A stretch of 35,818 nucleotides of DNA, taken from Xanthobacter autotrophicus. GTDB taxonomy: Bacteria; Pseudomonadota; Alphaproteobacteria; Rhizobiales; Xanthobacteraceae. A program made the position numbers and the translations under genes. Below the pieces are notes generated by a model. The model was given only the letters and a program-made list of their open reading frames with translations, did not search any database and was not told the DNA's origin. Shown piece by piece: positions 11,450 to 12,424 of this stretch (its first letter is position 1; every line of letters begins with the position of its first letter). The DNA is taken from the NCBI RefSeq assembly GCF_030015065.1, contig NZ_JAIVFN010000038.1, forward strand, positions 1-35,818. Direction: 5' to 3'.

Positions 11450-11524
11450 GCTCGATTGCGTCACGCTCGATTGCGTCACGCTCGATTGCGTCACGCTCGA
11501 TTGCGTCACGCTCGATTGCGTCAC
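11450..11524. repeat. Five exact tandem copies of a 15-bp unit
   Basis: The unit GCTCGATTGCGTCAC is repeated five times without a mismatch at 11450, 11465, 11480, 11495 and 11510. It lies between rpmE and the small minus-strand gene, whose TGA stop falls inside the last copy. Identical copies imply recent expansion or active homogenisation. No function is apparent. Confidence 0.97.
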
Positions 11525-11934
11525 CAGACCAAGCCGCGGGCGGCCCTGCCGCCGTCGCGGCTTTCCGCGTTGCCGGCAGTGCCGGCCATGTCCCCGCCTG
11601 CCTCCTCCTGAAGCCGCGCGGCGAGCGCGCCGCAAAGGGTCGCGAGCTCCAGCGCCCCGATCCGGGCCGCCGCCGGCAGGCGTTCGACGAGCCCCCCCGG
11701 CAGGGCCAGGTCGAGCCGGGCCGCTTCGCGCCGGAACCGGTCCGGCTCCATGTCGCGGTCACCCAGCCTGTCGAGCATCAGCAGCGCCGAGGAGGCATCC
11801 ATGACGAGGCGGCGCAAGGCGGCGACCGCGGCCTGGTCGAGCGGAGCCGCCGCAAGGCGCGCCTGAGCCGAGGCCAGCCGCTCCATGCCACGACTGAAGA
11901 TGGAGGCCGATGCCGCCTCGTCCCTGTCCCGCAC
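11521..11934 (-). CDS. Small hypothetical helical protein
   Basis: I do not recognise this family. A GTG at 11934 is preceded by an excellent ribosome-binding site (GGAGGAG, minus strand of 11942-11948, seven bases of spacing) and gives 137 residues; an ATG at 11886 is the alternative. Composition is that of a real protein rather than a shadow frame: mainly helical, rich in Ala, Leu, Arg and Glu, with segments such as MERLASAQARLAAAPLD and LVERLPAAARIGALELATL. There is no membrane segment, cysteine pair or enzyme motif. In some related genomes the cell-cycle protein RcdA (DUF1465) sits near rpmE and DUF1192, but I cannot align this sequence to it. The stop lies within the 15-bp tandem repeat. 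Confidence 0.55.
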   Translation of the reverse strand: MRDRDEAASASIFSRGMERLASAQARLAAAPLDQAAVAALRRLVMDASSALLMLDRLGDRDMEPDRFRREAARLDLALPGGLVERLPAAARIGALELATLCGALAARLQEEAGGDMAGTAGNAESRDGGRAARGLVW

Positions 11935-12080
11935 CGCCGCACTCCTCCGCAAGGGCGGGCATCAAGCGGAATGCCGGCCCGTGCGTAAAGGGGCGGCGGC
12001 CGAAAAGGCATGGGGATATCGGGCACGAGCCCAACAAGGCACCGGCCGGGGTGGGGGTCGGACCGCGCGGGACCCCGCCC

Positions 12081-12160
12081 AAAGAAGAGCCGCCTCGCGG
12101 CGGCTCCGAAGTCTGACAGGGAGAGTTGCCAGTTGTCCGGGAGGAAACCCGACGGACAAA
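12081..12160 (-). ncRNA. Candidate small RNA with CU-rich hairpin loops
   Basis: Read on the minus strand, three hairpins follow one another. Hairpin 1 (12159-12133) has TTGTCC/GGACAA and GGG/CCC stems around loop TTTCCT. Hairpin 2 (12132-12113) pairs CTGGCA with TGTCAG around loop ACTCTCCC. Hairpin 3 (12106-12087) is an 8-bp GC stem followed by TTCTTT. A -10-like TACTGT (12167-12162) and a perfect CtrA box (12196-12181) sit upstream at suitable distances. CU-rich loops complementary to Shine-Dalgarno sequences plus an intrinsic terminator are the layout of alphaproteobacterial trans-acting small RNAs such as the alpha-r14 (NfeR1) family. Predicted length is about 80 nt. There is no coding frame of note. 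The family link is an inference. Confidence 0.5.
12087..12106 (-). terminator. Intrinsic terminator on the minus strand
   Basis: GAGCCGCC and GGCGGCTC form a perfect 8-bp stem with a TCGC/GCGA tetraloop. On the minus strand it is followed by TTCTTT, a fair U tract, so it should end transcripts coming from the DUF1192 side or from the candidate small RNA promoter. Confidence 0.7.
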
Positions 12161-12180
12161 TACAGTATGGCAAGCAGGGA

Positions 12181-12196
12181 TTAAGGCCGTCTTAAC
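12181..12196. promoter_or_regulatory. Perfect CtrA binding box (TTAA-N7-TTAAC)
   Basis: TTAAGGCCGTCTTAAC matches the full consensus of the alphaproteobacterial cell-cycle regulator CtrA. Such an AT-rich motif is improbable by chance in DNA this GC-rich. It lies 40 bases beyond the DUF1192 stop and about 25-35 bases upstream of the predicted start of the minus-strand small RNA, which is the -35 position where CtrA usually activates. The small unknown gene at 11521-11934 is the next coding target. Confidence 0.7.
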
Positions 12197-12235: not shown

Positions 12236-12424
12236 CTACAGCTTGAATGCGGCATTGGCTGCGGCGCGGGATGCCCGCTTGGCCTCGAGCGCCGCCTCCA
12301 GGCGCGCGATCTCCGCCCTGAGGTCGGCGATGCGCTGCTCGATCTCGTCCACGGACAGGCGCGAGATATCCGCTGCGACCAGCGGCTCGCGCGGCGGGGG
12401 CAAAGCGTCGTCGTCCATTGGCAT
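12236..12424 (-). CDS. DUF1192 family small protein
   Basis: A 62-residue protein. After an acidic, Pro-rich N-terminus comes the family pattern LSVDEIEQRIADLRAEIARLEAALEAKRASRAAANAAF, a single amphipathic helix likely to form a coiled coil. DUF1192 proteins are short, of unknown function and typical of Alphaproteobacteria. The neighbour on the divergent side, a PIG3-type quinone oxidoreductase, is also usual. The ATG at 12424 is preceded by AGGGGCG on the minus strand. A CtrA box and terminator lie beyond its stop. Confidence 0.85.
   Translation of the reverse strand: MPMDDDALPPPREPLVAADISRLSVDEIEQRIADLRAEIARLEAALEAKRASRAAANAAFKL

Follow-up and report, generated by a model that had tools for sequence, protein, structure and literature searches.

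A candidate CtrA-controlled small RNA gene related to BjrC1505 lies between DUF1192 and a probable, very diverged rcdA in Xanthobacter autotrophicus

The window analyzed here, a stretch of 35,818 nucleotides of Xanthobacter autotrophicus DNA, carries on its minus strand a gene for a 62-residue DUF1192 protein (12236..12424), which matched Pfam PF06698 at 6e-21. Downstream of this gene, on the same strand, lies an interval predicted to specify a small RNA (sRNA) of ∼77 nt (12081..12157), which occurs once in its own genome. The RNA is followed on the same strand by an ORF with a GTG start (11521..11934) that is probably a very diverged rcdA (RcdA/DUF1465-like), given its weak match to an RcdA profile and its equivalent genomic place. 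In Alphaproteobacteria, CtrA is the master regulator of the cell cycle, and RcdA is the protease adaptor that delivers CtrA to ClpXP. By eye, a 15-bp unit, TCACGCTCGATTGCG, was seen to be repeated head to tail about five times at positions 11455-11523, at the end of the rcdA-like ORF and before rpmE.

Upstream of the predicted RNA, a full CtrA box of the form TTAA-N7-TTAA, TTAAGACGGCCTTAA, is present on the minus strand (12181..12195). As the preliminary description had stated, this box is perfect; it is the only exact TTAA-N7-TTAA in the 35.8-kb window, and none of 100 shuffled sequences contained one. A -10-like hexamer, CATACT (12164..12169, minus strand), follows 11 bp after the box. The preliminary description had likewise placed a -10-like element here, and that element stands, but the exact hexamer it proposed, TACTGT, was dropped in favor of CATACT, which overlaps it two bases upstream, because the invariant positions fit CATACT: its A2 and T6 did not vary among 11 of 11 aligned Xanthobacter copies. 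In 84 other loci, the same columns, equally spaced from the box, show a loose TATnAT/C-like consensus; this comparison was made without duplicates, without two loci whose box has two mismatches and without L060, L063, L072 and L135, for which the box had been chosen off-position. Given this consensus 11 bp past the box, the 5' base of the box would lie ∼38 nt upstream of the predicted start (∼12157). According to excerpts of PMC4287350, full boxes near -35, and at -39 in ctrA P2, mark CtrA-activated promoters in Caulobacter. The window likewise has a full box whose 5' end falls near -35 to -39, as counted from a start predicted from the -10 element.

Three hairpins within 80 nt had been proposed for the RNA, and all were recovered, the third being a GC-rich terminator with a TTCTTT tail. 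Hairpin 1 (12133..12159, minus strand) has a C-rich, anti-Shine-Dalgarno interior, TTTCCTCCC. In its minimum-energy fold, GUCGGG pairs with CCC.GAC around the loop UUUCCU. An alternative stem, TTGTCCG/CGGACAA, was recognized by eye; all 11 aligned Xanthobacter copies have its core, GTCCG..CCGGAC, although the stem was absent from the RNAalifold prediction on the Xanthobacter alignment (A2). Hairpin 2 (12113..12132, minus strand), CTGGCA-(ACTCTCCC)-TGTCAG, presents an anti-Shine-Dalgarno loop on a stem whose pairs are retained in all 11 Xanthobacter copies, one of them as either UA or UG. The loop reads ACUCUCCC in Xanthobacter, and elsewhere the counterpart is UUGAC-(GCCUCCCU)-GUUAA. The sequence thus bears out the earlier description of a compact hairpin RNA with C-rich anti-Shine-Dalgarno loops. 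The predicted intrinsic terminator (12081..12107, minus strand), GGAGCCGCC-GCGA-GGCGGCTCT with the tail TTCTTT, was recovered both in the folds and in the Xanthobacter alignment. A terminator hairpin with a T-run was also present in the 54 relatives of alignment A1, in which pairs changing on both sides were found mainly within the terminator. Hairpin 2 and the terminator were common to both folds.

Folding of the RNA was moderately better than chance, with z values of -2.6 and -2.9 and with 2 of 200 and 3 of 200 shuffles equally stable. Chance is excluded mainly by conservation, since all 11 Xanthobacter copies that carry the body motif also carry a perfect box. Loss of the hairpins in close relatives had been named at the outset as an observation that would count against the RNA; they were kept in 11 of the 13 Xanthobacter loci adjoining DUF1192. 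L032 and L035, which also adjoin DUF1192, have a degenerate body and half a box only, and L033 is likewise a degenerate copy. In the X. autotrophicus group (L023-L026 in alignment A2), a GAGTACCTGGACC-like repeat of varying copy number lies inside the sRNA and lengthens it.

No Rfam family scored over its cut-off in the window. The covariance search against Rfam that the preliminary description had proposed was run with relaxed thresholds, and BjrC1505 (RF02356) reached 15.7 bits (E 1.1), below its gathering score of 50 bits. The 11 matches obtained with E-values up to 10 included neither alpha-r14/NfeR1, to which kinship had been suggested, nor EcpR1, and both assignments were rejected. A search of the window genome with RF02356 gave no match. 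When the same model was applied to intervals 3' of DUF1192, 7 of 10 loci matched with 84-127 bits, the three unmatched loci being the three from Xanthobacter. A second model (R1) describes the RNA body only; it was built from 54 non-Xanthobacter loci and excludes the box. R1 matched the window at 12077-12161 with a modest 25.5 bits (E 1.1e-4 over 88,749 bases). Genome-wide, the window locus ranked first (E 0.0065), and the sRNA locus was the top R1 match in 12 of the 14 Xanthobacter genomes; in G013 the best match lay elsewhere, and G006, which has no DUF1192 match, is also outside the 12. Several of the other Xanthobacter genomes placed the locus first only at E 0.03-0.6, and a stricter R1 search (E ≤ 0.001, strict filters) returned no match in the window genome. 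With several genome-wide E-values this weak and no match in the stricter search, the assignment depends on homology together with genomic place.

In the wider family, the RNA body consists of a C-rich CTCCCTGT loop followed by GAGCCGC..GCGGCTC and then T's, with two hairpins at the front, ATCCAG..CTGGAT and GAGTGG-CTCCTGT-CCACTC. Homology of the window RNA to BjrC1505 in loop and terminator was detected through R1, and the two RNAs occupy equivalent positions, with DUF1192 on the 5' side and rcdA on the 3' side, the latter represented in the window by a very diverged ORF. The front set ATCCAG..CTGGAT and GAGTGG..CCACTC was not found in Xanthobacter, which has one hairpin with a C-rich interior instead. 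On this comparison, the reading that we favor for the window RNA is that of a diverged ortholog of BjrC1505 in Xanthobacter, not of a formal Rfam member. Its earlier presentation as an undescribed element did not hold, given the R1 homology and the RF02356 matches at DUF1192 loci; BjrC1505 is already known as a named, little-studied Rfam family. It was reportedly described by Madhugiri et al. (2012, RNA Biology), who are said to have detected it in Bradyrhizobium, at a lower level in nodules.

Within the order, RF02356 matched 244 of 297 genomes (211 over the cut-off), as compared with none of 14 control genomes; in genomes drawn from the class, it matched 19 of 190 (9 over the cut-off). R1 gave matches in 108 of 121 genomes at the level of the order and in 31 of 190 at that of the class. 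The class-level R1 matches L185, L186, L189, L190, L191 and L195 have in common a stretch like ACGTCTCCCAGACGTGAAGCCTCCCTGTT and lack the CtrA box; they may represent an sRNA family of their own that has the same GCCTCCCTGT loop.

Conservation of the CtrA box was assessed in 115 fetched loci (L022-L136). Of these, 103 were anchored by a body pattern, and 101 were retained after removal of the duplicates L073 and L076; the 12 loci that departed from the pattern (L032-L035, L037, L044, L082, L083, L086, L088, L096 and L126) stand outside the 103. Because the pattern demands TCCCTGT and a terminator, constancy of that motif in the anchored sets is by itself no proof. A box with at most one mismatch was found upstream of the RNA in 99 of the 101 loci and was perfect in 52, whereas dinucleotide shuffles gave 13.3% within one mismatch and 0.8% perfect, and the sequence just downstream gave 14.9% and 4%, respectively. 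The box lay 82-95 nt before the CTCCCTGT loop anchor in 81 of the 101 loci. Within Xanthobacter, this distance ranged from 70 to 131 nt, since the hairpins and the inserted repeat differ.

Given that the Rfam model spans the box, circularity was checked with loci found by the box-free model R1 and with loci found through DUF1192. At R1 loci, a box with at most one mismatch was present in 37 of 40 further loci of the order (hand-chosen among R1 matches new to the set, mostly weaker ones), 25 of 28 high-scoring loci of the order (30 minus L202, omitted, and L205, too short) and 21 of 30 loci of the class, the last two sets overlapping partly with the 101. Shuffle controls for these three sets gave 104/800 (13%), 97/560 (17%) and 64/600 (11%), and the downstream controls gave 13/40, which is high, 0/28 and 2/30. 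The remaining 9 of the 30 class-level matches had no box within one mismatch. Among 30 loci found by the DUF1192 protein alone, 24 had an anchored body, and a box with at most one mismatch was present in 24 of these 24, in perfect form in 19. The loci share ancestry, and counts of boxes and neighbors are not independent events. On this evidence, the locus is very probably a real and conserved sRNA locus with a CtrA box.

DUF1192 lay upstream, on the same strand and within 700 nt, in 88 of the 103 anchored loci, and in 64 of 79 once the 24 loci found through DUF1192 were set aside. Downstream, a profile search placed rcdA on the same strand and within 700 nt in 83 of the 103 loci (82 of 92 outside Xanthobacter), a neighbor that the preliminary description had overlooked. 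The RcdA profile was built from L042, L071 and L052, whose downstream genes match NCBIfam RcdA and Pfam DUF1465, and was then extended over the loci; the L071 product matched a solved structure named RcdA (3ctw) at 2.4e-40. Within Xanthobacter, no family match was obtained for the window ORF in Pfam or NCBIfam or for the L030 ORF in Pfam. Scored against the RcdA profile among 9 sequences, a set that included the window ORF and left out L022, L028 and L036 because of wrong frames, the window ORF gave an E-value of 0.05 and the ortholog from genome G004 gave 3.8e-8 (6.5e-5 in a six-frame search). Comparison of the Xanthobacter ORF alignment with the RcdA alignment gave E 1.9e-4 and a probability of 47. 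Thus, decay of rcdA in the Xanthobacter copies seems to have left a short ORF that is barely recognizable, whereas the sRNA and the box are mostly intact. CtrA was present in all 11 Xanthobacter genomes searched, of 14. In the stretch from terminator to rcdA, a box with at most one mismatch was found in only 19 of 83 loci, so the box before the RNA is the strongly conserved one.

We consider it probable that the best explanation of these features is a small RNA gene under CtrA control, orthologous to BjrC1505, with a promoter that also stands upstream of rcdA. Here, phosphorylated CtrA would bind TTAA-N7-TTAA at approximately -38 and activate a sigma-70-type promoter, as suggested by the site, its spacing and its conservation. 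The resulting RNA of ∼77 nt would end at the GC hairpin, and its two C-rich loops may pair with the purine-rich ribosome-binding sites of target mRNAs and so block translation. Given that the same promoter lies upstream of rcdA and that no other strongly conserved box occurs from the terminator to rcdA, CtrA would drive the RNA and, when transcription occasionally runs past the terminator, also the factor for its own degradation. The RNA would then constitute a post-transcriptional arm of the CtrA negative-feedback locus.

The main rival to this explanation, which we regard as unlikely, is that the hairpins form a cis-acting leader of rcdA, that is, that there is one CtrA-driven transcript in which the terminator serves as an attenuator or riboregulated stop tuning the level of RcdA. 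The proximity of rcdA in 83 of the 103 loci and the box on the sRNA side as the sole strongly conserved one are both consistent with a leader. Published accounts point the same way: in the portions available, regulation of rcdA by CtrA is described as conserved (PMC2877005); in S. meliloti, the start site of rcdA is reported to have a CtrA motif upstream of it (PMC3616915); and in agrobacteria, rcdA is reported to be transcribed from several start sites, the predicted CtrA site lying further upstream than its Caulobacter counterpart (PMC10469942). Against this, the body, comprising the C-rich loop and the terminator, is conserved beyond the need of a plain leader, with a T-run in the aligned copies; the spacing between the terminator and the RcdA domain ranges widely (135-564 nt); and Xanthobacter mostly keeps the RNA while its rcdA has decayed. 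If the promoter belongs to an sRNA gene, as we prefer, then in rhizobia that carry the RNA, the CtrA site assigned to rcdA may be the promoter of the RNA.

Two further arrangements concern the 5' side of the RNA. It is improbable that the BjrC1505 transcript starts upstream of the box, with TTAA-N7-TTAA forming a 5' hairpin within the RNA. The 140-nt RF02356 model does cover the box (in L042, the match spans 1731-1869 and the box begins at 1738), which would place the box inside the RNA if the true 5' end were there, and the bases flanking TTAA co-change in Xanthobacter (GC to CG or UG) in a hairpin-like manner. However, a symmetric protein-binding site would give the same pattern of co-change, a UUAA stem is weak, and the -10-like consensus lies 11 bp past the box; the 5' part of the RF02356 model may be promoter rather than RNA. 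It is likewise improbable that the hairpins, terminator included, simply form the 3' end of the DUF1192 transcript, in which case the short RNA would be a read-through or processed product without a promoter of its own. Such an origin would agree with the presence of DUF1192 upstream in 88 of the 103 loci and with the observation that no terminator hairpin was recognized by eye from the DUF1192 stop to the sRNA, but it leaves aside the CtrA box and the -10-like element, and in 15 of the 103 loci DUF1192 was not detected within 700 nt, although 40 loci have a flank of ∼600 nt and some genes were perhaps missed.

Potential targets of the RNA were sought by complementarity. The C-rich loops resemble a generic anti-Shine-Dalgarno sequence. 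Predicted duplexes reached -39.2 kcal/mol with the ctrA leader (shuffles, -35.2 ± 4.7) and -43.3 with the leader of the rcdA-like gene (shuffles, -41.0 ± 4.3), no significant excess in stability in either case; in the ctrA leader, two-part complementarity to the RNA (AGUUGC and GAGGAAA) was seen by eye only. Across the 14 Xanthobacter genomes, CAGGGAGAG was found shortly before an ATG 136 times, as compared with 15 for the reversed pattern. This excess may reflect ordinary ribosome-binding sites only, and 2 of the 136 matches are the sRNA gene itself on the opposite strand. When the ORFs at ten of these places were read, three (L296, L297 and L298) proved to mark the beginning of a single large repeat protein shared by sister genomes, and the others had no common theme. 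In the leader of this protein, a GCAACTCT..AGAGTTGC hairpin encloses the ribosome-binding site near the start codon. One arm of that hairpin is part of a 13-nt perfect complement to the sRNA loop, and the complementarity is thus also explained by the hairpin of that mRNA.

A literature search, mostly of papers accessible without subscription, found no link between BjrC1505 and CtrA, DUF1192 or rcdA, and a look-up of terms in the available part of PMC3927594 likewise gave none; the visible portion of PMC6337395 names BjrC1505 in a table. The connection of a BjrC1505-type RNA with CtrA and rcdA therefore appears to be undescribed within the searchable literature. As a tentative extension, in Hyphomicrobiales and part of the other Alphaproteobacteria, the CtrA promoter of the rcdA locus would first yield an old, highly conserved anti-Shine-Dalgarno sRNA (BjrC1505), and the adaptor only by read-through, such that proteolysis feeds back on CtrA and the RNA acts on its regulon. 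The RNA arm might be the older or more essential one, because Xanthobacter mostly keeps the RNA while rcdA decays. If true, an sRNA with a CtrA box, present in most sampled genomes of the order and located beside rcdA, would add to the CtrA circuit a post-transcriptional arm that had been missing, and a function would be provided for BjrC1505, an Rfam family for which almost no literature was found.

Among known systems, BjrC1505 shares with the window RNA the place 3' of DUF1192, the CTCCCTGT loop, the GAGCCGC terminator, the upstream CtrA box and the -10-like spacing. By contrast, the window RNA scores below the Rfam cut-off, has one hairpin in place of two, carries the loop ACUCUCCC instead of GCCUCCCU and, in the X. 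autotrophicus group, contains the inserted GAGTACCTGGACC-like repeat. The suhB/MmgR family (RF00519) has CUCCCU..GACUU followed by a GCCGCC terminator, which also occur in the window RNA; it was rejected as an assignment, the window RNA scoring 18.2 bits against a cut-off of 41, whereas copies over the cut-off lie elsewhere in the same genome (C57). To our knowledge, CcnA of Caulobacter is what we would take to be the nearest functional analogue of a BjrC1505-like RNA. As described in excerpts of PMC8959179, CcnA is a putatively CtrA-activated RNA with a C-rich loop, proposed to act on the ribosome-binding sites of cell-cycle mRNAs; the likeness to the window RNA is one of description, and CcnA, unlike the window RNA, is located at the origin of replication; its own targets are ctrA and gcrA. 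Similarly, EcpR1 and GspR of Sinorhizobium are rhizobial sRNAs that act on cell-cycle mRNAs, but EcpR1 lies downstream of pleD and divK, and neither RNA is described as CtrA-activated in the available parts of the two reports (PMC4414408 and PMC5928217).
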